A stretch of DNA of 64,000 nucleotides from the NCBI RefSeq assembly GCF_900496995.4, contig NC_044008.1, forward strand, positions 558,001 to 622,000, written 5' to 3'. The DNA comes from Aquila chrysaetos chrysaetos (lineage: Eukaryota; Chordata; Aves; Accipitriformes; Accipitridae). The translations under genes were made by a program, and so were the position numbers. Positions 2,655-64,000 of this stretch are shown piece after piece. Under the pieces are notes generated by a model, which was not told the DNA's origin, ran no database searches, and saw only the letters and a list, made by a program, of their open reading frames with translations. Positions within the stretch are counted from its first letter, which is position 1; the number at the start of each line of letters is the position of its first letter.

Positions 2655-2800
2655 GATTTGCAGAAAACATGAAGTTTTGGGGGACACTGAACTTAGAGAG
2701 GACAGTGAAGAGCTAGAGGGAAACTCGCCAAGCTAAATGAGTGACCTGCATGACAGCAGAGAAAGTTCAGTGCTAATAAATGTAAAGAGATGGGCAACGG
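2655..2800 (+). repeat. Weak, old CR1 LINE fragment (RT C-terminal part)
   Basis: The stretch around gcagaaaacatgaag ... gtgctaataaatgtaaag follows the word order of the CR1 reverse-transcriptase 3' region, which reads roughly 'cagatgaaattcagtgttgataaatgcaaag' in family members I know. It is heavily diverged and short, and only this core is convincing. Orientation is plus, opposite to the better CR1 copy that starts 400 bp downstream. Ends are approximate. Confidence 0.35.
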
Positions 2801-3213
2801 AGGGCAAAAGCTGATTCTGCAGGCCAAAGAGCACAGTCCCCATGAATTGTGGCCATCTGATGGTGGCAATGTTCCTGATGACTCCAGTGCACCACAGGCA
2901 CTGAGGAATGAAAGCTGATACTGAAATGGTGGGGGCTGGCAGGGAAAGTTGGGCATTGATGGTGCTGCAGGAATATGTTGCTGTTTGCTTGCTGCATGTG
3001 CACCAAAGAAGGTTGAGGACACTGGCAGAAAGGTCTGGAGGAAGGTCTATCAGCTCAAGCACTCTCAGCGTAAAGCCTCCTAGAGGGCTCTGCCACTGGG
3101 TAGCTCCAGCAAAAAGGAATGACCTGGAATAATGGGCTTCTGCGCATTGTTACTTTCTCATCGGGGCATTTGCTGTTGGCTGATGGCAGGTCTGCACTGG
3201 CCCTCCATCGTCT

Positions 3214-4655: not shown

Positions 4656-7600
4656 GAGCACCTGGACAGTGGCTGCAAGCCAAGACAGGCATCAAGAGTG
4701 GGCTGCCACTTGCCAAATATTAGGCTTAGACCTAAGCATGTAGGTTGCTATAACAACTCGATGGGCTGTGGAAGGAAAAGAAGAGGGATTGCTTTCTGGA
4801 TGCTGAGCTTCCTCCTCACTGATGGCCCCAGCACAAGCGGGGTGCAGCTGATTTGCTGGAGAGCCAGCATAAGGTGAAGCCCCTGCAGATACCCTCCCCT
4901 TAGCCTCCTTCTGCCTGACTGCCTCATGGCTCGCCTTACCCACCACACCGCAGAGCGTCTGGAAGGCTTTCCTGCCTGGTGCCGTATGGGCATTTTCCCA
5001 AACACCAAGTTAACAGGTTATCCACTTGATCTTTTTTGGCACTCTTACTGACCGCCTTCCTGAAGGGAACAGACCTGCAGTCTGGTCCAAAGGAGCCATC
5101 CTTGTCAGAAAAGGGGTATAGAGGTGCCCTACTTCTGAGTTCTCCCCAAAATGCATACCTTTCCAATGGAAATTTCATCTGGGCAGAATCTGAAGTTTTA
5201 GGAAGTTTACCTGGGATTCCTAGGCAGGTGGCACACTAGTCTGAATTGCTGCAGCAGAGCTGTTTCATGCATGGAGGTACCCGCTGATTATACTGTGCTT
5301 GTGCGGTACAGCAGTTGCTTTTGGAAAACATCAGCTTTATTGCTTATGCACAATGCAGTTGCTGAGCCCCTTCATAAAGTCTCTGACCCCTGTGAAAGCT
5401 CTTTCGGGAAACATTAGACCAGTTGCACGTGTTCAGCACTGCTGAGCTGTCTGTGCATTGTAAGTCCAACATGTGCCAAGAACACAAGAGCTGTGCCTGA
5501 GGTAACCGATCTTTGCAGACCATGATTCACAGTTCCAAGCTGCCTGATTTGTAGGACTTCACGCATAAGCGGTGCCCATAGGTTCTGCATTTATTTCTGC
5601 TCAGGAGACTCCATACAGAAGTGTAGCAGCCCTTAGAGTTACAAAATTTAACAGTTCTCTCCTGGTTTCCTCATTCTTGTGTTCATCTGAAGAGGAACTC
5701 TTCCAGTGCTTCTTCAGCATGATCAGCCCTCCAGATGCTGGTGGAGTTACTCATTGCCTTCAGGAGGGACAGTACATTGGGTACAATTAACCCCACTCAT
5801 TTGTATCAGTTTTGCAGGTGTTCCCTCGCAGCATCCCTTTGTTATTCTACTGTGAAAGAGAAGAACTCAGAAGTGACAGATTTATCTTCCCTAATGAAAG
5901 TACTGGCTGCACTGGTAGAGTCCTAAGAAAAAATGACAGCAGGAAATTAGATCACCTTCAGTGAAAAACCTTGTTCTCAGTAGTTCTTCAGATAAGCCTC
6001 ACGCGCTGTTGGGCACCCTTTTCCCTGTGGGCTTTCTTTATGGGGATAAGCTTATCCTCTCTTTGGATTCTTTTACTGAGAGCCAGGAACAAATTTCTTG
6101 CCAAAAGTCAGTAGTTAAGGAAGAGCAGTGGGTTGGCAAATGGTCCCTGAGAACAGCTTATCAATCTCCCAGTAACGCAGCTCTGTCTGCCACTGGTGCC
6201 GTGCCCGCTGTTGGAGCAGGGTGGCTGTGGTGCTGCCTCTTGTCCTGAGGGTTGACTGCCTGGGCAGAGCATCCAGCTCTGGGGAGAGAAGGACTTTCCT
6301 GGCTCCTTTGTGATGAGGCTTCGCTTGGCCCTCTGGTCAATGGGACTTTCTCAAGGTTCTGTGAAGAAGCGTATTTCCTTCCAGTTTTTGAAACAGGCCC
6401 ATACCCCTTCACCAGCCATCTACCAAAAGAAAACTCATCTGAACGGAGCCTGTCAGCAAGAGCTGGGGCGCAGGCAGGGGATGGGAAGTGCTTTCCCCTG
6501 GACACCGTTCTCGCTTGCAAAGCGGCGTGTGAGAGCATGCAGCTCGTGCCAGTGAGTTTATGTCCTGTTCGGGGGTCGTGTTATTTCCATGGTGACACGT
6601 AGCACAAGTGCTTTTAATTTTTGGTTTGGAGGCTCTCCAGAGAGACTTTCTTTCCTTTCTATACTCCTCCCCTTTGTCCTCCCTTTTCAAGCACAAATCT
6701 CATGAGACAATTCTGGAAGACAAAACCCTTCCAAAGATGGGAACTGTAGAGGTGTCATGTCATCTGTGCATGCACCGTTCTAGGCAGGAAGCCTCAAAGT
6801 ATCCGTCTGCATTTCAAGCGAAAAGAGAGAGACGATTAGTCTCCAGCCCTGGCCCTAAAGCACAGCCTGGCCATGGTCACAGATAGCGCCAAGGGTGATG
6901 TCAGAGCCTTTAGGTGCACCGAGCACCAATGGAGAATCACGAGAGCAGTCTCATGTCTCACTCATCAGTTAGCGAAGGTTGTTCATCACAGGAGGCAAGT
7001 CCTTCATGCAGTTCTAGTAAAAAGCAATGGAGATGCTTTTGAAGGCCGGTACGAAAACACCTGGAAGCCAACAGCAGCAACATGAAAGCGTTGCTGAGCA
7101 AAAGCAAAGCATTTCTCTTTGGAGTGATAAGTGCATTACCTCTGTTGCTGAATCAGTCGTCGCCTTTGTTACTCTTGAAGAAATTTGGACTGAGATATAG
7201 AGTTCAAAGGAAGAATCCTCATACATTAGTGACTTATTCAAGAAACCTGCTTTTTAATACCTTCAGTAAAAGTATTCCCAGAAGGCTTAATTAGCTGTCC
7301 TACAAATGCATAATCCCTCTTTCTTTGGTTAGAACTTCCTTTTTCATCAAGCTGGTGTTTCTTTGCTTGTGAGCCTGCTTCCCGTGAGACCTGTTCTCCC
7401 TCTTTGCTGATTCCAGTCAGTTCCACGTGTGTGCTGTGGTGCACGAATCAGGCCTTGTCTTCTGTGTCTCAAAAGACTAGTTTTTCTGGCTGCACTGAAG
7501 CAGCAATCCAGGCAACCGATCTACTGCAACTGCTGGTGCCAACAGACTGCCACCACTGAGCACTGCGGGACAGGGGTTGAGAGCTGCCAGAACCTGGATT

Positions 7601-9614
7601 GCACATGTTCAAAGACAACAAGCTTGAAGGCAGCACTACAACAGTGATTAGAGCTGCCACATCCCAACTCACAGAGAAACCTGTGACAACCAGCAATCCC
7701 ACCATCTCTGGGCTGCTGGTCTTCCAAGGACCAGCTGGACCACCACCAGAAATGGAAAGTGAAAAAAGCATTTCATTTTTCTTATTAAGCTCCCCAGTTA
7801 CATTGAATTGATGTTGCCTAAAGGGGAAGTGGACAATGCCATAGTGTTCATGAAACCTGACAAAGCTGAAGTCTTCGATAGCAGCATCCTAAAACGTAGA
7901 AGCACTTGGCCTCAGCTTGGCTACAGCTGGCTGGTACACATCTCTGTCGGTGTGTGTTCGTCGGGCAAAACACATGATGTGCCAACACGAACCTGCAATG
8001 AAGAAGTGCGGTGATCCAGGAAAAAACCCTCTAAGCAGATATTGTCGCTGTGCGTAATGTGCAATTCCGTGGAAGGGATAACGTGCTGAGGTGCCACTTG
8101 TGAACGATCACATCCAGAAAAACTTACCTGGCTTCAGAGCAGGATGAAGTGCCTGTGACTGAATAATTGGACTGATGGCCCATAATGAAGTCAGCTTCCA
8201 GAGCTGGACGGGACATTAAAGACTGCTGGGCTGTCTGCAACATAACGCGTGGTTGGCAGAATGGGGCTGCTGAAGGTGTTGAGAGCCAACAGTATATTGC
8301 CAACAGTACGTTGCACTGACCAAGCTGGTGCTCTGCAGAGGAGAACAGACCTACAGATTACATCTGCTGACCAGCTGTGCCGATACAGGTCTGCCGTGGC
8401 ACCACTGTCTCATCATTGCAAGGACATGCCAGCCTTGGAAGCTTGGGCACACAGCTGATTTCTCATGTGTGGTTCCACCAATCACATTCCCCAAGAGCAG
8501 GAATAACCAACTTCCCAGAACCTGTAAGCCACCAAACTAAAAAGCCAAGTGGCAGGGAGGCCTTGCAGCACAGCCTGCCACATGATGTGGGTCTCTGTGC
8601 AGCCTGCATCTCCACTCTTGGCAAAGCCTGGGCTGCCGGACAGCCATTGGGCATCTACCACTTCGGTGAGTGTGCTTGCACAGGGCTGCTGCAGGTCTCT
8701 GCAGTACACACCAGCTTAAGTCTCTCTTCTTTCACAGACTCTGACAGCAATTTCCCCCTCTGTCCCACCTTGGGCAGGTTAAACAAGCCTTTGGCACGCT
8801 GGCTGCTGTGTCTGCAGCCATTCCTGTTTGCATTTACCTTTCTTGAACATGAGTGACCAGAAGTGTGCTCAGAATTTTAAATGAGAGTGTAGCAGTGTCT
8901 CCTATGGTGACATGAATGCATCCTATGTCTGTGAGCAATGCACACCTTAGATCTTGCAGTGTTTCTTTTGCCTTTCCATGGCCATGCCACATTGGTGCCT
9001 CCCAGTCACACCTGCCCCAGGGTCTGTCAGTAGACCCAGAACTTTCTCTCCCTTCATCACTTCCAGTAAAGAGCAGAGCCTTTGCCAGCCCTCTGAGCAG
9101 GACACCGTATTTTGTACTGTCACTTTTTGTTCTGCTTCTTGTACTGCAGCCCTCAAGGTCATTCAGCTCTTCCTATTCTGTAGTGACGGAGCTTCCCAAA
9201 TGTGATTCATCGTCATGCTTCTTTATAATCCTCTTGCTTTCTGTGCCAAGGTGGCAGGAAAATAAGAATAAGAGGAAATGTGCCTGAGCCCACAGACTGT
9301 GAACAGCCCTTCATATCCACACTCAGCTAATCTTCTCGGAGCCATCTCTCTAAGAAATCATTAGTGCTTATTAACCTCGCAGAGGTGTGGATCTTGTGTC
9401 GCGTGCGCATTAGTGGCAGCGGGTCTATGCCATTAACTGTAGCCCTTGGACTCCTGTTGCCAGCAGCAGGTTTCCAGAGTGTCTGCTGTAGCAGGAGGGA
9501 CCTGAGATGGGAGGGCAGAGCTTGGGGGGTGGCAGAGAAGCAGAGGTGCCGTACTGCGCCGGGCTGCACGCGGGGCACCGTGACGACAGCCCGGAGGACT
9601 GCTTGTTTTTTAAC

Positions 9615-9622
9615 TGACGTCA
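9615..9622. promoter_or_regulatory. Palindromic CRE octamer (TGACGTCA)
   Basis: A full CREB/ATF consensus palindrome lies in a short CpG-containing patch (9540-9622) inside the presumed SHANK3 intron. A single octamer can arise by chance, and no TATA box or initiator is evident next to it. It is listed only as a candidate intronic regulatory site. Confidence 0.2.
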
Positions 9623-11194
9623 CATCCAGGCACCAGGGAGCTGCAGTTCTGTTGCATTTTATCGATTAGTTTGGAGGACGAGCAAACTGACATTGCTTGA
9701 CCCAAATGAGTGGTCATGGACTGTTTAGCACAGAGATAAGCAACCCAGCCCCGGTAATGCCGTGCCTCTTGGCCCGGGACTGTGCAGCCCTAAAGCAGTG
9801 GACTCTTCCTCCCCACTCACGCTCGGTCAGGGCTGCAGCACTTCTGCTGTGGAAGCATCCAGGCCCCTGAGCTGCTGCAGGACGTGGGCCCCTGCTGAGA
9901 GCCCTCCTCGGAGCTGAGACCCCACCAGCCTCAATCGGAGGCTACCACAGAGCAGTGACCACAGCCCCGGGGTGGAGTCAGGTTGCTGTGTTCGCTTTCG
10001 CTGCCAGGACAGAGAGACCACAGGGGAGCCCCAGGTCTCTCCCGGTCGGAGTCACATCCCCGGTCGCAGTCAGCAGTGGGTGCGAGTACCCAAAGCAGGG
10101 CACGAACAGGGCCGGGCAGCAGCATGCCTTCCTGAGGCCTCCCAGGCTGGGGCTCATTGCGCTCAAAGGACTCATCCTCCATCATCTTGCCCTGTCAGGT
10201 GCTAGATCCCTTTTTTTTTCACATACCCAGAGTACTTGTTTATGCCAGGGGAGGCAATAAAGGCAAGAGGTGAGGGCAGACGGAAGGGGTGCTTGCAGCA
10301 TGGGTTGTCCCCCATCAGAGGCTCTCGTAGTGGCGAGTGGGCAGAGCCGTGCGCTGCAGGAAGGGCTGCCCCCTGCCCAGCTCCACGGCCTGTGCCCACC
10401 ACGGCACAGGGTGCAAGCCGTGGAGGCGGACACGGCACAGCGCAAGGGGAAGACCAGTCCATACACCTCTGGGCTGCTTCAGCCCACACGAAAGGGCTGA
10501 CCGCCGTCGGGTGATGATCTGACCCTGCTGCCTCCATCCTTGGGGTGGCATGACCATCCTCCCGTCCCCACACCACTCTCTGGGGAGATGCCGGAAGGTT
10601 CCCTCTTCTCCTGGGAAGGGGCTCTGCCCCGACTGGCCGATGTTCTTCTCGGGAGCGCTGGTTTGCTCCGAGTCCATGGCAGGACCCACCCAAGAGCATG
10701 CCGATGGTAGCGCGGTTAGCGAGGGAAGATGGGGGCATTCCCGGTGGGAGGTGAGGCTGGTGGGCTTCGGTGCAGCTCCGCGGCAGCTTCTTCCTGACCA
10801 GCCGAGGCAGGGCAAGGTGCAGGGTCTTCAGCCGCAGCGAGTCTTCGTGTGTATCCAGCAGGCTGCAGGGCCACATTCATCCCTGGTAGGTCTCGATGGG
10901 CTTCAGAGCCATGGCAGCTAGGGCAGGTTTGGCTGGGAACCGGAGATACTTGGTCGAACCTCTTCTACCTCCTCTGGAACAGCCCCGGCAGGGCTTGCAA
11001 GCAAGTCTTGGCTGAAGTGCTCCGAGCCGTGTCCCCTGAGCGCTGCAGAGCCCCCTCCTGTCTCAGGCTGCCCCAGCCCTCCAGCAGCCCCCCCCATGTA
11101 TATTGTGTGTGTGCTCCTGTGTCTGGGGACCTCCGCCTCACCCCTGCCCTCTGCTCTCTCTCCTCTCTCTCTCGCTGTACCGTTCTTTCTGCAG

Positions 11195-40853: not shown

Positions 40854-44313
<3,460 letters not shown>

Positions 44314-48997: not shown

Positions 48998-51900
48998 ATG
49001 GCGGAAGCTCACCAGGCCGTGGCCTTCCAGTTCACTGTCACCCCCGAGGGCTTGGACTTCCACCTCGGCCGCGAGGCCATCAAGCAGCTCTACCTCGCCG
49101 GCATCTCCTCCTGGAAGAAGCGCTTGGTCCGCGCCAAGGTGGGCCTGGCCGGGGACAGGCGGACGGTCGGACCCTCCCCGTCCCCACGGCCCCCGCCGCC
49201 CTGACCCCCCTGTGCCCACAGAACAGCTTCCTGACCGGCGTCTACCCCGCCTCCCCCTCCAGCTGGATGGTGGTCATGGTGGCCACCGCCGGCTCCTTCT
49301 ACTGCCAGGTCGACCCCTCCCTGGGGATGATCGCCCGCATCCGCCACTGCCTGCCCAAGAGGTGAGCGTGAGCGGCTTGGCCCGGGGGACCACCCCCCCC
49401 CAACCCATGGGCATGGCCCCACCAGCCACATCCCCCGGGGAGACCGCCTCCCATGTCCCAAGCCATGGGCAGAGTCCCACCTGCCATGCCCCTTGGTGGG
49501 GACCACCCCACGCATCCCCAACTCCATGGGGACGGCCCCACCCACCATGTCTCCCAGGGGCACCCACCCCGCATGTCCCCCAACCCCCCAGCATGACCAT
49601 GGGGGCCTGCAGCAATCCCCCGGGGGGTCCCCACCCCACACATCCTTATCCCACTGGCACAGCCCCACTTGGAGGCCTCCCCCCGGGGGGTCCCACTACA
49701 TGTCCCCCAGCGCCACGGACATGGCCCTGCATGGGGATGTCCCCTGGGGGGGGGGTCACACCCTTCATGTCCCCCCAGCCTGTCACATTCCCCCCCTCAC
49801 CCCGTCTGCTCCCACAGCCGCCTCCTGACCTACGAGAGCCGGACAATGGTGAGCACCGTGCTCTTCTCCACCGGCGTCTGGCTCTCTGCCGTCCTGCTCT
49901 TCCGGCAGGCGCTGAAGCTGCTCCTCTCCTACCACGGCTGGATGTTTGAACCCCACGGCAAGATGAGCCGCAGCACCAGGATCTGGGTGGTGAGCGGCGC
50001 CCGCAGCCAGCACCAGCACCAGCTCTGGCACCGGCACTGGCCCGGCAGGGCAAGTGGTGCCGAGTAGGGTGCTGCCAGCGTGGGTGCAGGAGGATGCTGC
50101 GGCACGGGGTGCAGAGTGTCTGCTTGTGCATGCGTGTGTGCATGTGCAGCAGTGGGTGCCGGGGCGCTGGCGGGGGCTGCGAAGCTGCTGATGGTGGGGA
50201 TGAGCTGAGCCCGCTCCGTGGCACGTGGACGGTGGGTCCCGGTGGCCCAGTGGGGCCGGGCAGCGAGGGCAGGAGCTGCCCTGAGTTGCTTTGCCCCAGG
50301 TGGGCACAGGCAGGAGCAGCTGCCTAGAGCCGGGGTGTCAGGTACAACGAGCAGGGCTGGGACCCGGCTGTGGTGCAGGGTTGGGACCTGGCTTGTGGTG
50401 CAGCAGGCGCATGCAAGACTGACGGTGCCGGCAGCAGGAGCTGGTGCGCGGGTGATGCATGGCCACACCGCGGTCCTGCAGCTCTGCCCCATCCCCTCCA
50501 TCCTCTCCACGTGCCCGGCAGGCGCTGATGAAGGTGCTGTCTATCCGCAAGCCCCTGCTCTACAGCTTCCAGACCTCTCTGCCCAAGCTCCCTGTGCCTC
50601 CCGTGGAGGCCACCATCACCCGGGTAAGGGGCTGGGATGGGACAGGGGATGGGGGGTGTCCATCTGCGGTGGGAGGGAGATGGGGGGGGTAACACTGAGC
50701 CCCCTCCCCACAGTACCTGGAGTCGGTGCGCCCACTCATGGATGACGACAAGTACAGCAAGATGGAGGCTTTGGCCAAGGAGTTCAAGGAGAAGACAGCT
50801 CCACGGCTGCAGAAGTACCTGATCCTTAAGTCCTGGTGGACAACCAACTATGTGAGTACCCTGGGCTTCGCCGGTGCTGGGGGGGGACACACGCTACTGC
50901 CGCATCCCCCCCCGACGGCTGTATGGCCATTGCGGGGGGACGCAGCGGTGGTGTCCCCCCCCAGCATCAGGGATGGTGACCCCAACCCACGCCCACGGTC
51001 CTGCTGTCCCCTCATGATCATGGGAAGGGGGGACTTGGGCCCTCCTGGGTGCCCCAGCTGGGTCATTAGGGGCAGGGGGTCCTGCACCCCATCCTTGTCC
51101 CTGTCCCCATCCTCGTCCCTGCAGGTGAGCGACTGGTGGGAGCAGTACATCTACCTGCACGGCCGCAGCCCACTCATGGTCAACAGCAACTACTATGCCA
51201 TGGTAAGGAGCTGGGGGGCGTGATCGCCGGCATGACCGAAACTCCCACCGGGTGCCCCCCGGCATCGTCACCAAGCCCCGTCCCTTGTCCCCAGGATTTC
51301 CTCTACGTGACCCCCAGCCACATCCAGGCTGCCCGGGCAGGTAACGTGGTACACGCCGTCCTGCTGTACCGCCGCAAGCTGGACCGTGGGGAGATCCCCC
51401 CTGTGAGCACCTGGGGGGCTTGGGGAGAACAGGGGGGGCAGGGGAGGCTGTGGGGCAGGGGTAGGGCCTGGGGCAAGTCACCGTGGGGCTGGCACAGGGC
51501 TGCAGCGGGGCTAGGGGGCTCAGGGGGGCCAGGGTTGGGGGGTGCAGGGGACGGAGGTGGGGGCACGGGTGCCCTGGCCCCCCCCTCACTACTGCCCCGC
51601 ACAGGTGATGGCGCTGGGCATCGTGCCCATGTGCTCCTACCAGTCGGAACGGATGTTCAACACCACCCGCATCCCCGGCAAGGAGACGGGTACGGGGGGA
51701 CGGGGGGCACCCCATCCCCCAGCGGGGCTCAGCCCCCATCCCCTGCGCAGGGTCTGTCCCGGGTGGGGTCCCGGGGCCGTGGGGGGGGGGCCGTGACACC
51801 CGTGTCCATCCCCCCCCCCAGACACACTGCTGCACCTGGTGGACAGCAAGCACCTGGCCGTCTACCACAAGGGCCGCTTCTACAAGGTCTGGCTGTACTA

Positions 51901-54900
51901 CGGGGGGCAGCTGCTGCAGCCCCGGGACCTGGAGCTGCAGTTCCAGCGCATCCTGGACGACCCCTCGCCCCCCCAGCCCGGCGAGGAGCGGCTGGCGGCA
52001 CTCACCGCCGGCGAGAGGTGCCGGCGTCCCCGCGGGTCCCCATGCTCTGGGCACGCCATGGATGCCGTGCACGCTGCCCGAGGTGGCGGGAGCAGGCGCA
52101 GGGGGATGGAGGGGATGCTCTGGGATGGGGACCCTTGGGCCACCCATGGGCGGGGGCTGCGGTGTGGGTCGGGACAGTGGGCTCGGCAGGACGGCGGTGG
52201 ATCTGGGCATCGCCAGCCCCCGGCCCTCACGCTGGCGGTGCCGGCAGGGTGCCGTGGGCCGAGGCTCGAGCCCGGTTCTTCAGCCACGGGAAGAACAAGG
52301 TGTCGCTGGACGCCATCGAGCGGGCAGCCTTCTTCCTGACGCTGGACGAGGAGGAGCATGGCTACAGCTCGGGCCGGGAGGGCTGCATGGACGCCTACGC
52401 CAAGTCCCTGCTGCACGGCCAGTGCTATGACCGGTGGGCAACCCCCCAGCCCCCCCCCACCCCAGCCACCCCCCACCCCCCGGCACCCACCCTGCCCTCA
52501 CCCCCCCTCCCCGCAGCTGGTTCGACAAGTCCTTCACCCTGGTGGTCTACAAGAACGGGAAGCTGGGGGCCAACGCCGAGCACTCCTGGGCCGATGCGCC
52601 CATCATCGGGCACCTCTGGGAGGTAACGGGGGCGTGGTGGGAGCACCCCCAGACTGGGCACCCTGTTGGGCACCTTCCTTGCGCACCCTGGGGCTAGGGA
52701 CCCCCATTGTACACCCCCAATTGGGCACCCCCCCAGTTGGGCATCCCTATGGGGCACCCCGGGGCTGGGGACCCCCATTTAGGCAACCCCCAAAGGTTGG
52801 CACCCCCAGGCTGGGTACCCCCAGTTGGGCACCCCCAGGCTGGGGACCCCTCTCCTGGGGGCAGGGGGACGTCGGAGGGGGCTGCCCTGGGGGGAGCCCT
52901 GGGGCAGCCTGGGGTGAGTGGGGCTGCGGTGGGGGGGGGGGGGCATGGGGCCACGCTAGGGCAAGTGGGGCAGCCAGGGGGGTGGACTGGGGGTGGATGG
53001 GGTAACGCTGGGGAGGCTGGTGCCCCGCATTCAGGGGCATCTCTCCCCCCAGTTCATGCTGGCGACAGACAAATTCCAGCTGGGCTACACCGAGGGGGGG
53101 CACTGCCTGGGGGAGCCCAAAACCCTGCTCGCCCCCCCCCAGCGGCTCCAGTGGGACATCCCCCAGGAGGTGGGTCTCACCCCCCACCCTGGCCCTGCAG
53201 GCAGGCTCTCGGGGTCCCCCTCCACTCCGCGGCACTGGGGTGGGCTCTCTGCACCCCAGCCACCCCAGTGCCCCATGGCACCGGTGCACCAGTGCCCCTG
53301 GCTGTGCCCAGGGCTGGGGCTGAGCCGTTGGCGTTCCCCGGCCCCGGGTGACGGGGCGGGGGGGTCCGGGGTCCGGTGCCGTGCACCCCATCCTCCACGG
53401 CTGCGCCTCTCCGCAGTGCTGTGCCGCCATCGAGAGCTCGTACCGCCTGGCCAAGGCGCTGGCTGACGACGTGGACTTCTGCTGCTTCCAGTTCTCCGAC
53501 TTCGGGAAGGGGCTGATCAAGAAGTGCCGGACCAGCCCCGACGCCTTCATCCAGATCTCTCTGCAGCTCGCCCACTTCCGCGTGAGCTGCCCCGGGTGGG
53601 ACGGGACGGGGACGGGGACGGGGACGGGGACGGGGACAGCATTCCCTGGTCTGACCTGGCCTCTCCGCAGGACAAGGGCTGCTTCTGCCTCACCTACGAG
53701 GCCTCCATGACACGGCTCTTCCGCGAGGGCCGGACAGAGACGGTGAGATCCTGCACCGCCGAGTCCACCGCCTTCGTGCGCAGCATGGCGGACACCCGGC
53801 AGACCGTGAGCAATGCGCAAGGGTCCGGGTCTACAGCCCCCCAAGCCCTCCAGACCTCCTCTCCGAGCCTTCGGCTCCATCCTGCTGTCCCCAGCCGGGT
53901 TGGGGCTGTCGCTCCACAGCCAGCACCTCCCCTCGCTCGGCTGGTCCCATCCCTTGGGGAGGTCCCCATCTCTCATAGAGGTCCCTGTCACTGGGGGGGG
54001 GGTCCCCATGCCTCACAGTGGTCATCATCCCTTGGGGAGGTCCCCATCTCTGGCAGATGTTCCTATTCCTGGGGAACGACCCTGTCCCTGGAGAAAGTGC
54101 CCATCTCTGGAGGAGGTCCCTGTCCCTGTGGAGGTCCCCATCCCTTGGGGACATCCATTTCCCTGGGGAGGTTCCCATCCCTCGAGACCATCTCCCCCAG
54201 AGCTGCGCAGCCGCTCCTGGCCAGGACCGGGAGCGCTCGCCCCACGCGGAGCACCCGGGGCGGCTGGATTGGGGGTGACAGGACCCTGACCCTGAGCCCA
54301 ACTCTCCCCGCAGCGAGCAGAGCGCCAGCGGCTCTTCAAGCTGGCGGCCGAAAAGCACCAGCACATGTACCGCCTGGCCATGACCGGGGCCGGCATCGAC
54401 CGGCACCTCTTCTGCCTCTACGTCGTGTCCCGCTACCTGGGGGTGCAGTCCCCCTTCCTGGCCCAGGTGAGCCCGGGCGGGCGCGGGGGCACGCGCAGCG
54501 CAGCGCCGCGCCGTGACAGCAACACGCATGGCACACGGGACACCGCATGGGCACGCGGGGGAGAAAAACTGCTACCCGTACATGTGTCACCAGCGCATGC
54601 GTGTGCAAGGGCTGCAGGCACTGCATCCGGCCCGGGCGCGTGTGTCCAGCCGCCATCACCGGCGTGTCGCCGGGGCGCAGCGGGGCGCAGCGGGGCGCTC
54701 AGCCGGCGGCACTGACGCCCGGTGCGGGCAGGTGCTGTCGGAGCCCTGGCGCCTCTCCACCAGCCAGACGCCGCAGCAGCAGCTGAAGATGTTCGACCTG
54801 AACAAATACCCTGACCACGTCTCCACCGGCGGCGGCTTCGGCCCCGTGAGCATCCTCTGGGGGAGCAGGGGGGGGGGCCCTGGGGGGTCAGCAGGGCTGG

Positions 54901-55690
54901 GGGGGGAGCCAGGAGGGTGGGGGTGTGCAAGGGGGAAGGCAGGTGGGTGCGCAAGGGCAGGAGCGTGTGTCTGTAGCACATACCCCCCCCCCACGGCTCT
55001 GGGGCAGGCACGTGCCCCACAGTGGGTGCCCCCTGCCCCACAGCCGAGGTGGGTGCCCCCAGGGGTGCCATGGCCCCGCTCATCCCCCCACCACAGGTGG
55101 CAGATGACGGCTACGGCGTCTCCTACATCATTGCCGGTGAGAACCTCATCACCTTCCACATCTCCAGCAAGTTCTCCAGCAATGAGACGGTGAGAGCCCC
55201 GGGGCGGAGAGGCTGGGGGGGGGGATCCCCTGAGCAGGGGGTGCAGGGGCTGGGGGCTCCCCAGGCGGGGAAGGGCAGGGCAGGCAGCGGTGCCTCTCCT
55301 GGTGCTGCAGTTGCCATCCATGCTGTAGGGTCTCCTGTGGGGTCCCCAGGGGTCTGGGGCAGCCCCTGACCCTGACCCTGCTGCATCCCAGCCCCTCTCC
55401 TTTGGGACCCTCACCCTGCTGCATCCCAGCACCCTCCTGTGGGACCCCCCCCCCCCCCCCTGCTCGAGGCTTGTGGTGCTGCCTGTGCAGGACCTGCTGG
55501 GGGTCCCAGGGCGCAAGGGGTGCCCCAGGGGCAGGGGGGGGCCGTGTCCCGCTCTCGGGGGGGCCGGGGAGTCAGTGGGATCACGGGTGCTGCCCCACAG
55601 GACTCGAAGCGCTTTGGGAGGAACATCCGGCAGGCCATGCTGGACATCGCTGAGCTCTTCGACAAGCCGGCCGAGAAGGCGAGGAAGTGA
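48998..55690 (+). CDS. CPT1B: CPT1B, muscle carnitine palmitoyltransferase 1, complete
   Basis: Outer-mitochondrial-membrane enzyme that forms acylcarnitine from long-chain acyl-CoA, the rate-limiting, malonyl-CoA-inhibited step of beta-oxidation. Eighteen coding exons: 48998-49138, 49222-49361, 49818-49989, 50522-50623, 50714-50851, 51125-51202, 51295-51402, 51605-51689, 51832-52018, 52248-52433, 52517-52622, 53053-53169, 53417-53581, 53671-53805, 54314-54466, 54732-54845, 55097-55189, 55601-55690. Total 769 aa (human 772). N-terminus [14 protein letters not shown] is the malonyl-CoA-sensing region. Two membrane spans are near residues 53-75 and 103-125. [18 protein letters not shown] and [20 protein letters not shown] follow. 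Catalytic His is in [16 protein letters not shown] (about residue 468). Then [40 protein letters not shown] and the C-terminal [15 protein letters not shown]. Clearly CPT1B rather than CPT1A or CPT1C by the N-terminus and by following CHKB. Several introns carry minisatellites. Confidence 0.98.
52640..52865. repeat. Minisatellite in CPT1B intron 12
   Basis: Irregular copies of ttgggcaccccc and ggctggggaccccc words (about 24-27 bp unit) fill the first half of the intron after 52622. Confidence 0.85.
53595..53640. repeat. GGGACG hexamer run in CPT1B intron 14
   Basis: Six to seven tandem ggggac/gggacg hexamers right after the donor at 53581, in a very short intron (53582-53670). Confidence 0.9.
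53930..54190. repeat. Minisatellite in CPT1B intron 15
   Basis: Repeated cccttggggaggtccccatc, cctgtccctggagaaagtgc and related units of about 28-30 bp. Confidence 0.85.
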
Positions 55691-55844: not shown

Positions 55845-58285
55845 CCCTGCCCAGCTCCGCACCCGCCATCGGGCTGGGGTCCCCCGCGTCGCGTCGGGCA
55901 GGCGCACCCCACGCTGGGGTTCCCTGCGCCCACCGTTGTCCCCATGGGGGTCCCGGCAGCCCCCCCTGCAGCCGATGGGCACCGGCCAGCGGGCACGGGC
56001 GGCGGGTGCGTCAGCGGCTCCTCGGGCAGTGGATGAAAGGCACCGTGGGGCGGCGAGCGGTGAGCCGTGCCCGCCGGCGAGCTGTGCCCGCCGGTGAGCC
56101 GTGCCCGCCGGCCACCTGCGTAGCGGTGACGGGGAGTGTGCAGCGGGGCACGGCGGCAGGGACGCGCGCTGCGCAGAGCCCCTCGGCCGTGTCCAGCACA
56201 CGGCGGGACGCCTCGCCCCATGCGGTGCCCGAGGGTTGGAGGCGGCCGGCACCGTCCTCCCACCGGCTGCCCGCACCCGGAGACCTCGCAGAGCTCAGGG
56301 GGGGCCAGCCGGCCCAGAGCTGCGTGGCAGGCGAGGGGCCAGGCAGGCCTGGCACAGGGCTTGGAGCCCCCCCCACTATGGGCACCTCCTCGTCCTGGGA
56401 TGCTCTGGCTCTGGGATGCAGGCTGAGACCCCACTTGGCACCCACACCCTGCCTTACCCCCCCCCCTTTTCTGCACCCCTGCCCGCTTCCCCTCCTGCGC
56501 TGCCAGAACTGCCCGATGTCCCCGCGCAGAGGGACACAGTGAGGAGGTGACAGGGAGGGGGCACCGCAGTGACATCCCCAGAGCTGGCATGGGTGCTGTG
56601 CCCACCATGGGCTGCTGAGCTGGGGTCCCTCCTGTGGGCGGGCGCAGGGGCCACCATCACCCTCACCCCCAAGGAGGGGTTGTGACGCCCGGCCGTGCAC
56701 CCCAACTCAGCCAAGGGTGGTCTGAGCATCGACCAGACGTGGGGACAGAGGGCGGGAGCTGCCATCTGCCCACACTGGTGCAAATCTCCTCATGTGAGCC
56801 CCTGCCAGCCCTTGCCCTGGGCCACATCCTGCACCCCGACCCCACATTGGGGCTGCACCCCAACCCCACATTGGGGCTGCACCCTGCCACCCACATTGGG
56901 GCTGCATCCTGCACCTGCGCCCCACAGCCCAGCTCAGCCCCATGGCCAGGGGTCTCGGAGTTGGGACCTGGAGCCTCCTAAGTGCGGTGGGGACCCCGGA
57001 GGCCACAGGCGGGTGCCTCTGCCAGGTGGCTGTGCCGGATCCCCAGGGGGGAGCAGGAGCTGCCGGTGCGTGTCTGGAGCCACGATGCATGTCTGTCGGG
57101 AGCCACGGCTGGAGCCGCGCCGGGAGCCGCTGGTCCCTGCTCCCTTATCTGATCCCAGGCTGCGGGCAGCAAGCCCAGCCCTGGCCCCGGTCCTCTCCCC
57201 AACACTGCAACAGGGTGCTCCCTCCCGGCACCCCCTGTCTCCCCACGGGTCCCTCCCCATCACCCCGCTCCCCCCCGCGGGTCCGTGCCCATCGCTTGGC
57301 GTCGCTTGGCGTCGCTTGGCCCATGCGTCATGTCGTGCCAAGGTGCGGTGCTGCCCGGCGGTCCTGGCCGCTGCCACCCCCCCACCCGTGGGGCAGTGAC
57401 CCAGCACCCATGTTGGCTGGTGCTCACGCCAGAGCCTTGGGTGCTCGCGCTGGAGCGGTGGGTGCCACGCTGGTGTGGTGGGTGCTCTTGCTGGAGCGGT
57501 GGGTGCTCACGCCGGAGCTGTGCATGTTCACACCGGCTCGGTGCACGCCTACGCCGGTGCGGTGCGTGCTGCAGGGGGCTGGGGCCGGGGCTGGGCACAG
57601 AGGAGACAGCCCGGCGAGGCGCAGCCCAGCGCTGGGCACCATCGTTGGGGTGAACACCAGAAGCTGCCCGAGAAGCACCGGCACGGGCAGGGCTCTGCCG
57701 GGACAGTCGCTGTGACACCCGGGGACCACGAGCGGGGCCGGGGCCAGTTGCGTTGCTGGACCGATGTTGCCCCCCAGCACAGCCCAGCTCTCCCGTGCTG
57801 GTCGGTGTTGTCACCCTGGAGGGTGCCCTGCCCCGGCACCCCGGCTGCAGAGAGCGAGGGCAGCACCCCGGGGGTGCCGGGGGGCTCGGGGCAGTGGGGC
57901 CAGGACTGGGGTTCGGCTGGGCACGGGGGCTCGGGGCTCCCGGTGTGGTTGGAAACATTGCCCACAGCCGGTGCCAGCGGCACTCGCTGCTGGGGGTGCA
58001 GAGGTGGCCCCGGGACGAGGGGGCTCTGCTACGGGCTCGTGGGGTTCCATCCAGGGACCGTGCCTCTGGGGGTGTTCGGGTGAGGGGAGGCCTGGGCTGG
58101 GGGTCCTGCCGCAGGGGCTGTGCCCGCTCCGGGCCTCCCGCCCGCACGTGGCAAGCAGGAGCCGTGGGGCGGCCGCCTCTCCCCTTTGATCTGGCTGCCA
58201 GCGGAGCCGGGCGGCTCCCAGGAGTGGGTGCCACCCGCCCCGTCTCCCACGCTGCCCGACGCCCCGCGCCCCTGGCCGCAGCGCC
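55845..58285. other. Intergenic region CPT1B to lectin 1, repeat-bearing, no gene recognised
   Basis: Short tandem repeats occur at 56050-56115 (gagccgtgcccgccggygag units), 56830-56905 (29-bp unit with cccacattggggctgcaccc, three copies), 57296-57320 (cgcttggcgt, three copies) and 57410-57570 (gagcggtgggtgctcacgcc-type units of about 30 bp). Long frames on the minus strand here are repeat and GC artefacts. In human, SYCE3 and KLHDC7B lie beyond CPT1B; neither is seen. Confidence 0.55.
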
Positions 58286-58291
58286 TATAAA
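58286..58291 (+). promoter_or_regulatory. TATA box of lectin gene 1
   Basis: TATAAA in gcagcgcctataaaggcgtc, the only clear TATA element in the window. A start site is expected near 58315, about 385 bp before the start codon. TATA-type promoters suit strongly tissue-restricted secretory genes. The leader is probably spliced (acceptor ccgttgcag at 58687). Confidence 0.7.
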
Positions 58292-58348
58292 GGCGTCAGG
58301 GCGGCCGCGTCCTGCTCCAGCTGGGCTCGTCTCCACGTCGCTCCCACG

Positions 58349-58640
58349 GGTGCTGGGTGGGTGCTGGGGCAGGCGATGGGGTGGCGGGTGTTGGGGCAGG
58401 CGGTGGGTGTTGGGGCAGGCGATGGGTGCTGGGGCGGGTGGTGGGGTGTTGGGGCAGGCGGTGGGTGTTGGGGCAGGCGATGGGTGCTGGGGCGGGGTGG
58501 TGGGTGTTGGGGCAGGCGGTGGGTGTTGGGGCAGGCGATGGGTGCTGGGGCGGGTGGTGGGTGTTGGGGCAGGCGATGGGTGTTGGGGCGGGCGGTGGGT
58601 GCTGGGGCGGGCGGTGGGTGCTGGGGCAGGCGGTGGGTGC
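58349..58640. repeat. 19-bp minisatellite between TATA box and coding start of lectin 1
   Basis: About 15 copies of ggtgggtgttggggcaggc, with gatgggtgctggggcgggt variants, in the first intron or leader. It is G-rich on the coding strand with quadruplex potential. It opens long spurious frames on both strands. Confidence 0.95.
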
Positions 58641-58699
58641 CCGGGCCGGCCCCACGTCACCCTGCTCCAGCCGCCCCTCCGTTGCAGGGAAGGGAGAGG

Positions 58700-60033
58700 A
58701 TGGGACCAGCCGCTTTCCTGGGGCTCTGCCTGCTGGGCTGCCTGGCCCTGCACCCCTCACTGCAAGGTGAGCCCCTGCCCGCACCCTCCCCTCTGCCCTG
58801 GCCCTTCGTGCACGCTAACCCACCCCCCGCGGCACCCCCCCCCCCCCGCCTTGCTGCCTCCCCTCCCCAGCTCCCCACCCGGCCCGGAGATGGGGATCCC
58901 CGAAACGCAGGGGCTGGGGATCAGCCTCCCCAAATGGGGGCGAGGGGTGCCCCGAGCCCCCCCCCCCGGCGCTGCTGCCCACCGGGTCCCGGCTGCAGCC
59001 AGGCGCTGCTGGGGGGGGGGGGGGGGTGTCACAGCAAAGGCCCTAACACTCCCCCCGCCCCGAGCAGGGGCGCAGGCGAACAAGTGCCCCCGGGGCTGGC
59101 TGGACTTCGGGGGACACTGCTACGGGTACTTCGGGCAGGAGCTCACCTGGAGGCAGGCAGAGGTAGGTGCTGGGGGGTTGCGGGGGGGGGGGGGGGGAAT
59201 GACCCCGGGGGGGGCTCCCCGGTGCGCAGGCAGCGCTGCCAGCCCCCCCCCGACCTGCCTGTCCCTGCCAGGCCTGGTGCAGGTCCTCCCGCGGGGGGTG
59301 TCACCTGGCCTCGCTGCACACCCCCGAGGAGCACCGCGCCCTCGCCGCCTTCATCGCCCGGCGCCAGCGCCGGGAGGAGGAGGAGGAGGAGAACGTCTGG
59401 ATCGGCCTCTACCACCGGGTGGGTGTCCCCGCGCCCGCAGCGCTGCCCGCAGCCGCCCCCCCCTCCCCTGGGGCCGGGGGGGCAGCACCCCCTGCCCCAG
59501 CCCCTTCCCACGCGTGGGGCTGCCGCACGCACGGCCCCGGCCCGGAGAGGTGCCCGTGCCCTGCCCGCACCCACGCGTGTTCCGTCCGTCTGTTCCTCCT
59601 CTCCCCATCTGCACACCCCCCCCGTGCTGGCTGCCGCTTGCCCACCCTGGCCAGCCCCCCGCACCCTCGCTGTCCCCAGCCCCGTGCCCCCCCCCCATTG
59701 CTGCCTAACGCCTGCCTTGCCTCCTGCCCGTCCCGGGCTGCCAGAGCCAGGCTTGGATGTGGGTGGACGGGTCGCAGACGCGCTACTCGGCCTGGGAGGG
59801 GGACGACCCCCCCAAGAGGAAACACTGCGCCGCGCTGGACGACTCCTCGGGTGAGAGGGGGGGGCCCCGGGACGGGCGGCGGAACACCCCCCCCCCCGGT
59901 GACAGAGGAGGGGAGGAGGGGAGGCTCCCCTGGCCCCCCCAGCACCCACTTCTCTTCTCCTGCAGGTTTCATGTCCTGGGAGGACGAGTCCTGCGGCGAG
60001 AGGAAACCCTTCGTCTGCAAATACGCGGCCTAG
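58700..60033 (+). CDS. Secreted C-type lectin, struthiocalcin/dromaiocalcin-like
   Basis: Five coding exons, 58700-58766, 59068-59162, 59272-59418, 59745-59850 and 59966-60033, give 160 aa. Signal peptide [20 protein letters not shown], then a mature N-terminus near [11 protein letters not shown]. One long-form C-type lectin domain: [16 protein letters not shown], then [40 protein letters not shown], a run of six Glu, [29 protein letters not shown], and [11 protein letters not shown]. The wording is close to ostrich and emu struthiocalcin/dromaiocalcin eggshell-matrix proteins, and more distantly to ovocleidin-17 and REG4. These are laid down with calcite by the uterus and can steer crystal growth. 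The usual EPN/QPD calcium-sugar tripeptide is replaced by GDDPP, so classical sugar binding is unlikely. Uterine expression is inference from the family. Confidence 0.92.
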
Positions 60034-60225
60034 GAGGGGGCCCTGCGAGGCAGCCACCCCCCCCGGACCGCGCCCTGCACCCCAAACCCCGCGTCCCCCC
60101 ACATCACTCCTCATTCCCCAACCCTGGACCCCATTGCACTGTGCATCACCACAGCCCCGGCCCCCCAAACCCTGCACCCTTCTGCCCCATTGCACCGTGC
60201 ATCACAGCCCAGACCCCCAAACCCC

Positions 60226-60440
60226 TCTGCCCCATTGCACCCATCACAACCTGGACCCCCAAACCCCTCTGCCCCATTGCACCCGTCACAACCTGGACCC
60301 CCAGACCCCTCTGCCCCATTGCACCCATCACAACCTGGACCCCCAGACCCCTCTGCCCCATTGCACCCATCACAACCTGGACCCCCAGACCCCTCTGCCC
60401 CATTGCACCCATCACAACCTGGACCCCCAAACCCCTCTTC
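60226..60440. repeat. 42-bp tandem repeat in the lectin 1 3'UTR
   Basis: About five copies of a 42-bp unit containing gccccattgcacccatcaca and acctggacccccagacccct. The length is a multiple of three, so all frames stay open, but the array lies after the stop and before the poly(A) signal. Confidence 0.95.
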
Positions 60441-60611
60441 CCCATTGCACCGTGCAGCACAGCCCAACCCCGTACCCCATATCCCAGTGCCCCATTGCAC
60501 AGTGCATCCCCACAGCCCAGACCCCCAGCCCCCTGCACCCCTCTGCCCCATTGCCCCCAGAGCCCCCCAGCTCCCTTGCCACCGCGGGCGGCCCCCGCCC
60601 CCCACCCTCAC

Positions 60612-60617
60612 AATAAA
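60612..60617 (+). terminator. Poly(A) signal of lectin gene 1
   Basis: AATAAA in caccctcacaataaagcgtg, about 580 bases past the stop, with a downstream tgtggtgccgtgtcttcctcc element. Confidence 0.85.
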
Positions 60618-60639
60618 GCGTGCCGACAGACCTGTGGTG

Positions 60640-61430
60640 CCGTGTCTTCCTCCGTCGTGTCCGTGGCCCCGGCACTGCCCACCCTGCCGGGCCCTGGCTG
60701 GGCATGACTGGCCCCCATGGGTGGCACCAATGGGGGACGGGGACCCGGCAGCACCATGTGTACCCCAGGCCTGGCCCCGGGGAGGGGGGGCACAGCAGAG
60801 CGCAGGGACCCCCCATCCCTTCATGCCATGGTTCGGGGACCCACTGGCATCCCAGCTGGACCCCAGCCCCCCCAGCTCCTCTCCGCCTGCTCTGGGGCTG
60901 CCCCGGGGGGGGCTCAGCACCGGCCCCCACGTGGTAGCGGTGTGGGGAGCAGGGGGGGCTCCGTGGGGTGCCCCATGGGTGCGTTCCTGGAGGCGCGTGC
61001 CCAGGGGGTCCACGCAGGGATGGTGCAAACCTGCAGCAGGGACCCTGTTGCCCCCAGCCCCTCCCGCTCTGCTCTGCACAGGTTTTCTACAGATTTTCTC
61101 CATTTTATGGTCAAAATGAATAAGCCCAGAGGGTTCCCCCGGCTGCCACACCGCCGCAGGCCTGCAGTGTCCAGTGTCAAGTAGCAGGGCTAAGCGCTGG
61201 CCCCATGGGGCAGGATGTGTCCCCGGGGCAGGGGGTGTCCCCAGGGCAGGACGTGTCCCCAGCAGGATGTGTCCCCAGCAGGATGTGTCCCCGGGGCAGG
61301 GGGTGTCCCTGGCCGTGGGGCTGGGCACCAGCCGCTATGGGGCACGAGTGGCTTTGGCGGTGGCACCGCCTGTGCCCACGCGTGCCGGGGAAGGAGGACA
61401 GGCGCAGGTGGGTGCTGGGCTCTCAAGCCA
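60640..61430. other. Spacer between the convergent lectin genes, no gene
   Basis: It contains a small tandem repeat at about 61205-61312 (ggcaggatgtgtccccag and gggcagggggtgtcccc units). A lower-GC patch around 61080-61125 (ttctacagattttctccat) is the only composition break. No coding signal was found. Confidence 0.6.
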
Positions 61431-61433
61431 ACG

Positions 61434-61439
61434 TTTATT
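61434..61439 (-). terminator. Poly(A) signal of lectin gene 2
   Basis: TTTATT in ccaacgtttattgcatgctg (AATAAA on the minus strand), about 150 bases past the stop at 61587. Confidence 0.8.
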
Positions 61440-61586
61440 GCATGCTGGTCGTGCGGGGAGCCCGGCGGGGTCGGAGCCTGGCAGGGCCAGGAGGTCCCCA
61501 GTCGGGCAGTGGGCAGGGAGGGGCGCGGGGGTGGCAGGGAGGGGGGTGTGGGGGCACCCCCAGACACCAGCGGGACCAGCCCCCCC

Positions 61587-63043
61587 TCAGAGCTGGTGAC
61601 TGCACAGGAAGGGGAACTTGTAGTCGCAGGGGTAGTCGTGCCAGAACTCGAAACCTGGGCAGGGAGGGGGGCAGAGAGTCACCCCGAGCCCTGTCACCCC
61701 CCCAGCACACCCCCCTTTTACCTCCGTCACCCCCCACCTCCATCACGCCTCCCCTCCATCACCCCTTTTATCTCCATCGCTCCCCACCTGCATCACCCCT
61801 TCTATCTCCACCACCCCTCCCCCCCTTTACACCAGGCACCCCAACTGTCCCGCAGTGCCCGGGGGTCCCGGCTCCACCAGGGGTGGCCACGCCAGCCCCC
61901 CCACTGCTCCCCGGGACCAGGCTCACCCGAGAGCTTGTCCAGCACCACGCAGTCCTCCTTGTCCCAAAGGTTGTTGGGCTGCCCCTGGTCCCAGCGCTGG
62001 TAGTCGAAGGCAGAGTTATCCGACCACTTCCACTGCCTGGTCTGTGGGTGCCGGGGGGGGAGGACAGGGGTCAGTGGGTGCCCGGGGTGGGGGGCCAGGG
62101 CAGCCCCCAGGCAGAGGTGCAGCCCCCCCCCGGTGACTCACATGCTCATCGTCCCGCAGCCCGATCCAGATGTTGTCCCTGTTGCTCTGGCGGGCGATGT
62201 AGCTGGAGAGGACCTTGCTGGCCCCCCGGCTGTGGATGGAGGCCAGCCGCCCCATGGGGCCATACCGGCTGCACTCATCCTGGGGGGGGGGGGGCATGGG
62301 CGGCTCAGCACCCAGCGCCTGCACCCACCCAGGCACTGGGTGCTGGGTACCCCTGCACGGAAAGCCCCTGGGGTAGGGGGGGGGGGGGAGTGCAGCAGAG
62401 CCCCCCCGACTGCATCTGGGGTGCATAAAGCAATGCCCCCAGGCCTCAGCCGCCGTCCTTCCCTGGGGACCCCCACCAGTGTCCCCCGGCAGTGCCAGCA
62501 CCCACCTCGGCCTCAGCCCAGGTCTTCCTCTCGGTGAAGTACCCGTAGCAGTACCCCCGGTAGTAGAGCCACTTATGGGGGCAGGTGGTTGCCCACCTCC
62601 TCGGTGGGGCACGGCTGGGGCGGCCGGCGAGGGCACCTTCAAAAACGCAGGCAGAGCTGCCGTTGGTCCCACGGGAGGGGGGCACCCACCACCGCCCCAC
62701 GGCCCGTGCCCGCCACCACCGTGGGGAGGGAGCCGGGATGTCTGCCGCGGGTGCGGGGCCAGATGGGCAGCACCCCCACCCAGGGACACCCCCACCCAGG
62801 GACACCCCACAGACAGGACTGGGCACCAGGGGCTGCCACGGGATGCGGATGGGGAATGGGGATGAGGGACTGGGGAGCAAGGATGAGGGATCAGGGTGGG
62901 CTGGATCGGACGCTGCTGCTGGAGGGGGAATGGCACCCGTGTCCCGTGGGGGGCCGTGGCCCGGGCAGGGAATCACCTGCCATGAAGGCCATGAGGAGCA
63001 GGCAGCCGAGCAGGCAGTGGGGGAGCTTGGGCCCTGCACTCAT
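61587..63043 (-). CDS. Secreted C-type lectin, REG4/ansocalcin-like, with QPN site
   Basis: Five coding exons on the minus strand, 63043-62977, 62636-62506, 62279-62142, 62041-61927 and 61654-61587, give 172 aa. Exon phases are the same as in lectin 1 next door. Signal peptide MSAGPKLPHCLLGCLLLMAF. The mature N-terminus is basic (GRPSRAPPRRWATT). The C-type lectin domain follows: CPHKWLYYRGYCYGYF, TERKTWAEAEDECSRYG, RLASIHSRGASKVLSSYIAR, DNIWIGLRDDEHTRQWKWSD, YQRWDQGQPNNLWDKEDC and GFEFWHDYPCDYKFPFLC. Unlike lectin 1 it keeps a QPN tripeptide plus ED before the Cys, so a calcium-dependent sugar site is plausible. The acceptor at 62637 was chosen because only it joins exon 1 in frame. Family resemblance is to small secreted REG4-like and eggshell lectins; ligand and tissue are unknown. 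Confidence 0.9.
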
Positions 63044-63084
63044 ATCTTCAGCTGCAGAGAGAGCAGAGGAAGGGCATGAGCAGC

Positions 63085-63375
63085 TGGACAGAGGGCAGGG
63101 GATGCTCAGCTCCATTCCGGATGGAGGGCAGGGGATGCCCAGCTCCATCCCAGATGGAAGGCAGAGGATGCCCAGCTCCATCCCAGATGGAGGTCAGGGG
63201 ATGCTCAGCTCCATCCCAGATGGAGGGCAGAGGATGCTCAGCTCCATCCCAGATGGAGGGCAGAGGATGCCCAGCTCCATCCCAGATGGAGGTCAGGGGA
63301 TGCTCAGCTCCATCCCAGATGGAGGGCAGAGGATGCCCAGCTCCATCCCAGATGGAGGGCACGGGATGCCCAGCT
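63085..63375. repeat. 33-bp minisatellite upstream of lectin gene 2
   Basis: Eight to nine copies of a 33-bp unit with gctcagctccatcccagatg and gagggcagaggat words, some alternating gaggtcagggga. It sits within the leader intron or proximal upstream region of lectin 2 (a leader acceptor, ctctctgcag, ends at 63053). Confidence 0.95.
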
Positions 63376-63754
63376 CAGCACCCCGAGGATTGGAGCTGGG
63401 GTGCAGCAGGACACTGCACCCATCAGGGTGAGGGAGGGCCAGGCCAGGGAAGGGACTCACCGGAGCGTGGCTCTGGGCAGGCAGGAAGGTCAGGGATGGC
63501 CTTTGGGGACCGTGCTGTGGTGGCTGCCCTGGGGAGAGGTTACAGCCGGGTTACGGGTTCCTCCGAGGGTAGCCGGTGGTCCCTCAGGAGCCCAGAGGGC
63601 AAATGCCACTCTCAGGCTTTACAGCCACCAGCGGGGAGGGCAGCAGCGGCTCCGGTTCCCTGGAAGCGAGGACGTGCTGGGGATGCGCTCGAGGCGACGC
63701 TGCTGCCCGTGGGCCCGTGAAGGCACCCTGGAGTCCCGCCATGTCCCACCCCAG

Positions 63755-63972
63755 AGGGCAGGTTTAGGTTGGGCAGAGGGAGGAAAGGTTTTAGGCTGAG
63801 GGCGATAAGACACTGGAACAGGCTGCCCAGAGAAGCTGTGGTTGCCTCATGATTGGAAGGGTTCAAGGTCAGGTTGGCTGGGGCTTTGGGCAACCTGATC
63901 GAGCGGGAGATGTCCCTGCCCATGGCAGGGGGTGGGCGGGATGGTCTCTGAAGGTCCCTTCAACCCCACACA
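63755..63972 (+). repeat. CR1 LINE 3' end, plus orientation, strongly 5'-truncated
   Basis: The wording follows the CR1 3' terminal region: ggcaggtttaggttgggcag, aagacactggaacaggctgc, ccagagaagctgtggttgcc, ttcaaggtcaggttggctgg, ggctttgggcaacctgatcg, ggagatgtccctgcccatgg and gaaggtcccttcaacccc. Only about 215 bp remain, with no coding part. Orientation is opposite to the copy at 3.2-4.65 kb. Confidence 0.93.
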
Positions 63973-64000
63973 GTCTGGGTCTCTGGTGCAGTCTTCCCAG

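Follow-up and report, generated by a model that had tools for sequence, protein, structure and literature searches.

Do two C-type lectin genes that lie tail-to-tail downstream of CPT1B in an eagle genome both encode eggshell proteins? The question is raised by a 64,000-nucleotide stretch from Aquila chrysaetos chrysaetos (C5:558001-622000 of a 1.23-Gb assembly), referred to below as the window, which carries gene 1 on the plus strand and gene 2 on the minus strand near its end. A first-pass annotation had described these genes as an eggshell-type pair with equal exon phases that arose by duplication with inversion. The arrangement itself is borne out: both genes are intact, each encodes one Pfam Lectin_C domain (74.5 bits for gene 1 and 74.1 bits for gene 2, at a cut-off of 22.6, scores well above any chance level), and the placement of the TATAAA and AATAAA motifs fits. 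The pairing is an accident of the window's end; a third lectin gene of equal layout follows on the plus strand.

The reading favored here, with a probability of roughly 0.78, is an eggshell-lectin locus of the order CHKB - CPT1B - XCA1(+) - REG-like lectin(-) - XCA2(+) - ODF3B-like - TYMP - SCO2, in which gene 2 is separate, older and REG-like. The locus and its address as that of the eggshell lectins are already known, and the usefulness seen earlier in an anchored genomic position has been overtaken by papers of 2021-2023 (sources are cited below by PMC number). The one point left is the REG-like lectin that sits inverted between the two XCA genes.

Genes of the XCA-1 and XCA-2 types

Gene 1 is closer to struthiocalcin-1 (SCA-1) than to ovocleidin-17 (OC-17) or the REG proteins. 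SCA-1 is its best match in the PDB (194.5 bits), followed by human REG4 (95.2 bits) and OC-17 (86.8 bits); crystal structures of both SCA-1 and OC-17 exist. Identity is 62% to SCA-1 over 131 aligned columns and 37% to gene 2 over 129 columns. As the first-pass annotation had proposed, gene 1 is, by sequence, an eggshell lectin of the struthiocalcin-1 type (XCA-1).

A genome-wide search with gene 1 returned 40 matches at E values up to 1, nine of which fall in one cluster: five in gene 1, one in gene 2 and three in a new gene at C5:627991-628939. This gene 3, read in the next 10 kb, has plus-strand coding exons at C5:627851-627917, 627998-628092, 628544-628711, 628832-628937 and 629528-629595 (overall C5:627851-629595, equivalent to L011:5851-7595), and thereby lies 5.9 to 7.6 kb beyond the window's end. 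It is intact and encodes 167 amino acids in five coding exons with the phases of genes 1 and 2. Exon lengths of 67, 95, 106 and 68 bases are common to genes 1 and 3, with exon 4 measuring 147 versus 168 bases; in gene 2, exons 3, 4 and 5 are unequal in length to those of gene 1. Because gene 3 follows on the strand of gene 1, gene 2 is inverted between XCA-1 and XCA-2.

The best single-domain PDB match of gene 3 is OC-17 (144.5 bits, compared with 111.1 bits for SCA-1); the multi-domain receptor LY75 appears twice, with summed scores of 145.9 and 145.7 bits. Gene 3 and OC-17 share 49% identity over 139 columns and form a clade with 99% bootstrap support in the tree described below. Gene 3 is likely the second eggshell gene, the XCA-2/OC-17 partner of gene 1.

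The inverted gene and its motifs

The closest single-domain PDB matches of gene 2 are the galactose-specific lectin 1jzn (112.5 bits), BJcuL (104 bits), lithostathine (91.2 and 90.5 bits) and REG4 (82.3 bits), and several multi-domain receptors exceed these in summed score. SCA-1 reaches 58.7 bits, and OC-17 is absent from the best 60 of 214 PDB matches. Gene 2 is 34% identical to REG1A, 32% to human REG4 and 28% to OC-17, so OC-17 is not its nearest relative among the lectins compared; gene 2 was rejected as a candidate XCA-2 on these grounds, gene 3 fitting that role instead.

An unrooted maximum likelihood tree of seven sequences (genes 1-3, SCA-1, OC-17, REG4 and REG1A; 200 bootstraps) separates gene 1, SCA-1, gene 3 and OC-17 from gene 2, REG4 and REG1A with 87% support. 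In approximately unbiased (AU) tests of the placement of gene 2, an exclusive sisterhood with gene 1 is rejected (p = 0.02). With a leader recognized by eye, one C-type lectin-like domain (CTLD) and a grouping with the REG proteins, gene 2 most likely encodes a REG-like single-domain lectin and not an eggshell lectin.

The calcite-binding segments found by simulation are YHHGEEEEDVWI and YSALDDDDYPKG in SCA-1 and SDSEEEAGEEVW and ASIHSEEEHQAIV in SCA-2, and the DDDD segment is the best-preserved piece in fossil ostrich shell (PMC5039028). Gene 1 has an acidic loop, EEEEEE, before VWI and the stretch EGDDPP further on; its first segment is fully of the acidic kind (6/14 acidic residues) and its second weaker (3/12 versus 4/12 in SCA-1). 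At the aligned columns, gene 3 has SHSSEDSEEEEDWDDGIWI, YGSWHRQPSPRR and ASVHSVEEHRAII, the first of which is acidic at 9 of 19 positions and the last of which aligns with ASIHSEEEHQAIV of SCA-2. In gene 2, these columns read QSNRDNIWI, YQRWDQGQPNNLWDK and ASIHSRGASKVLS, with acidic residues numbering 1/9 and 2/15, and acidic calcite-binding segments are absent.

Gene 2 keeps QPN...KED...WHD, a near-standard candidate sugar/calcium site. Both QPN and KED are in place, as is the final D of WHD, in which H replaces the N of the usual WND. Genes 1 and 3 lack QPN...ED...WHD, and gene 1 has no recognizable sugar site. From these motifs, gene 1 is predicted to bind mineral and gene 2 to bind sugar. 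The XCA-1 protein would most likely be secreted by the shell gland and attach to calcite as it grows, by way of the acidic loops EEEEEE and EGDDPP, and the XCA-2/OC-17 protein of gene 3 would most likely act in the same role through a Ser/Asp/Glu-rich loop. The protein of gene 2 would most likely bind glycans through its mostly kept calcium/sugar site, plausibly in the gut mucosa, rather than mineral.

The explanation offered first, in which XCA-1 and XCA-2, the eggshell pair, correspond to genes 1 and 2 and were produced by duplication with inversion, is very improbable in light of these results. The genes are adjacent on opposite strands with equal exon phases, and ratites do own two eggshell lectins (PMC8144736), but the gene that matches XCA-2 is located elsewhere, as gene 3, and the PDB scores of gene 2, the rejected sisterhood and the missing acidic segments all speak against a second eggshell lectin at this position. 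The eggshell assignment is retained for gene 1, by sequence, and given up for gene 2, which the best tree also places apart from the XCA group. This result corrects an easy misannotation, in which the inverted neighbor is taken for the second eggshell lectin.

Origin of the inverted gene

The age of the inversion can be considered separately. A search for inverted repeats over 58000-64000 gave 77 pairs; among the 25 longest, the top pair (56 nucleotides at 73% identity) links one leader exon to the other, and many others are low-complexity. BLASTN of the gene 1 block against the gene 2 block yields two matches only, of 25 and 58 columns, both exonic. The AU test of sisterhood, the inverted-repeat search and the restriction of BLASTN matches to exons speak against a recent inverted duplication as the source of genes 1 and 2, which is rejected; an old inverted duplication may have taken place.

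In one such history, gene 2 would have arisen long ago as a local inverted duplicate within the XCA-1 or XCA-2 group and then diverged by fast evolution, possibly with expression persisting in the oviduct. Its location between XCA1 and XCA2 agrees with this history, as do AU tests in which placements inside the XCA-1 group (p = 0.121) and the XCA-2 group (p = 0.105) are not rejected, and a minisatellite of its likely first intron that recurs inverted upstream of gene 3. Minisatellites, however, can spread without gene duplication, the best likelihood places gene 2 with the REG proteins at the 87% split, and a drifted XCA gene would need to regain the QPN...ED...WHD motif that is kept in gene 2 and missing from genes 1 and 3. 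This history is judged unlikely. That gene 2 is REG4 itself, or a relocated copy, is hardly credible: REG4 is among its matches, but the identity to human REG4 is not above that to REG1A, and in birds REG4 occupies a conserved locus of its own, on a different chromosome (PMC8144736).

Several points nevertheless weigh against the REG-like reading or parts of it. The unrejected AU placements leave room for an older origin of gene 2 within the XCA stock. The tree has long branches, its REG-like members are human only, with no other bird or reptile sequence among them, and support is 66% for gene 2 with REG1A and 74% for the gene 1/SCA-1 split. The candidate sugar site is imperfect, with QPN rather than EPN or QPD and WHD rather than WND; QPN stands where QPD or EPN would presumably be expected in galactose-type or REG-like lectins. 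An eggshell lectin cannot be recognized by acidity alone, because the second SCA-1 segment is not acidic in gene 3 (0/12) or OC-17 (0/13), and the first is weakly acidic in OC-17 (3/17). The ODF3B-like gene in the favored order was named by eye, and Pfam returned no family for a piece of it of 105 residues. PMC8144736 reports that REG1/lithostathine is not found in reptiles and birds, which a REG1-like reading of gene 2 contradicts; either gene 2 is an exception to this report, or it represents a distinct kind of REG-like lectin. Finally, the type III lectins of birds are counted among the OC-17-like genes with high similarity to OC-17, with REG4 named apart (PMC8505442), and by that grouping their relationship to XCA may be closer than that of gene 2.

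These type III lectins are of interest for their expression. They are widespread across pigeon tissues and, in zebra finch, strong in gut and very low in uterus, whereas the type I and type II genes are close together in duck and uterus-specific in duck and pigeon (PMC8505442). Perhaps gene 2 is the gut-expressed type III lectin of pigeon and zebra finch, though this is a guess. A 17-kDa protein of zebra finch shell has an N terminus 70-75% identical to three XCA-1 proteins (PMC4666066). Taken with the type III expression, this suggests an eggshell XCA-1 alongside a gut type III lectin in zebra finch, which would fit genes 1 and 2. Against this, PMC8144736 lists XCA-1 only for zebra finch, so that "TCA" and "XCA-1" of that species might be two names for a single gene.

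A broader proposal is tentative and rather doubtful: that the cluster keeps an ancestral-type glycan-binding REG-like lectin beside two calcite-binding lectins of the same stock, recording the recruitment of a mucosal lectin to the bird eggshell, and that the inverted middle gene, divergent with XCA-2, is a conserved and overlooked third member and a REG1-like bird gene despite what has been printed. Among the titles and abstract openings listed in a literature search, none mentions a REG-like lectin inverted between the two XCA genes, although Figure 9 of PMC8144736 may already show the middle gene. If the middle gene is conserved and gut-expressed, the locus would offer a direct test of how sugar-binding lectins gave rise to the mineral-binding ones of the eggshell.

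Other lectin sequences were sought around and beyond the cluster. When seven lectin domains were used as TBLASTN queries against the window, L011-L014 and L022, with E values up to 1 accepted, no lectin exon beyond genes 1-3 appeared, the leftovers having E values of 0.073 or worse. Of the 31 genome-wide matches outside the cluster, five places were examined and rejected as relatives. Four of these, L015 (C12), L016 (C5:52.9 Mb), L017 (C9) and L019 (C37), appear to contain lectican domains of the aggrecan type, and L018 (C25) resembles a CTLD of another sort; no close copy of the cluster genes is among them.

Gene models, locus and known relatives

Exons are numbered from a likely noncoding exon 1, placed by eye from TATAAA at 58286 in gene 1 and a minus-strand donor at 63461 in gene 2, and coding begins in exon 2. 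Gene 1, on the plus strand, has a candidate TATA box (TATAAA, 58286..58291), a leader-peptide exon 2 (58700..58766), exon 3 (59068..59162), exon 4, which encodes the acidic loop EEEEEE (59272..59418), exon 5 (59745..59850), exon 6 with the stop codon (59966..60033) and the poly(A) signal AATAAA (60612..60617). Gene 2, on the minus strand, comprises a leader-peptide exon 2 (62977..63043), exon 3 (62506..62636), which exceeds its counterparts in genes 1 and 3 by 36 bases, exon 4 (62142..62279), exon 5 with QPN...KED (61927..62041), exon 6 with WHD and the stop codon (61587..61654) and AATAAA (61434..61439). The genes are convergent, with ~0.8 kb separating their poly(A) signals.

Both reading frames are unbroken and encode 160 (gene 1) and 172 (gene 2) amino acids in five coding exons, with GT..AG introns between them and exon-end phases of 1,0,0,1. 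The leader exon has 67 coding bases in each gene, and the lengths in genes 1 and 2 are 95/131 bases for exon 3, 147/138 for exon 4 and 106/115 for exon 5. Both proteins are predicted to be secreted, judging by eye from hydrophobic leaders. Third-position guanine-plus-cytosine (GC) content in the coding exons is 91.9% in gene 1 and 89.0% in gene 2.

Three tandem arrays accompany the genes. One with a 19/58-base unit lies at 58379-58639, just 5' of the first coding exon of gene 1 and likely in its first intron, and one with a 42-base unit in 6.5 copies lies at 60176-60451, between the stop codon and the poly(A) signal of gene 1. The third is a 33-base minisatellite at 63091-63376, likely in the first intron of gene 2, which recurs inverted at L011:4349-4508; the longest alignment between the copies is 86% identical, consistent with either segmental duplication or a repeat that has dispersed.

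The gene order in this eagle is CHKB - CPT1 - gene 1(+) - gene 2(-) - gene 3(+) - ODF3B-like - TYMP - SCO2. Exons of a CHKB-like choline/ethanolamine kinase span 42232..43594 on the plus strand, in the best Choline_kinase stretches (PF01633, three frames, profile positions 74-233). The CPT1 gene extends on the same strand from the CPT_N match through the stop codon (48998..55690; PF16484 and, for carnitine acyltransferase, PF00755), with its last exons read in the sequence; it is labeled CPT1B rather than another CPT1 because CHKB adjoins it. TYMP and SCO2 are found beyond the lectins, on the far side from CHKB and CPT1, and the ODF3B-like gene lies between the lectins and TYMP.

In PMC8144736 (2021), OC17-like/XCA2 and XCA1 are located together, flanked by LMF2, NCAPH2, TYMP, ODF3B, CPT1B and CHKB, in a lectin cluster present in birds and reptiles and absent from mammals and amphibians. 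Chicken OC17 is located within 0-3 Mb of chromosome 1 (PMC10700341). Gene 1 occupies the published position, between CPT1B and ODF3B/TYMP, and the linkage to CPT1B proposed earlier as an eggshell-lectin address agrees with the synteny of CHKB, CPT1, TYMP and SCO2. This is the sauropsid eggshell-lectin locus at its already published address. Here XCA1, the REG-like gene and XCA2 follow one another in gap-free, GC-rich sequence, a region from which assemblies had long lacked these genes.

Across the window, GC content climbs at ~10 kb, from 0.48-0.53 over 1-10000 to 0.63-0.78 over 10001-64000. Pfam searches of both strands at 12-21 kb and 27-36 kb gave no family, and neither TTAGGG nor CCCTAA is present in the first or last 6 kb of C5.

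Among known systems, gene 1 is most similar to SCA-1, dromaiocalcin-1 and ansocalcin (XCA-1, type I), with which it shares a single domain of similar length, an acidic loop before VWI and the CPT1B locus; the second acidic stretch of gene 1 reads EGDDPP where DDDDYP is found in SCA-1, the member of this group whose sequence was compared. Similar to OC-17 and SCA-2 (XCA-2, type II), gene 3 has a Ser-rich loop, and WIGLHRP.GSR is found in both OC-17 and gene 3. The computed isoelectric point of the domain is basic in OC-17 (10.1) and acidic in gene 3 (5.4), which in its acidity resembles SCA-2, with a charge given as -10 (PMC5039028). The type III lectins, pigeon CCA-3 and zebra finch TCA, are described in PMC8505442 as a third, mainly non-uterine member of the OC-17-like set, a description that gene 2 would share. 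Like the REG family and the galactose-type single-domain lectins, which include its best single-domain matches 1jzn, BJcuL, REG1 and REG4, gene 2 consists of a leader plus one CTLD; unlike the REG proteins, it sits inverted at the eggshell-lectin locus.

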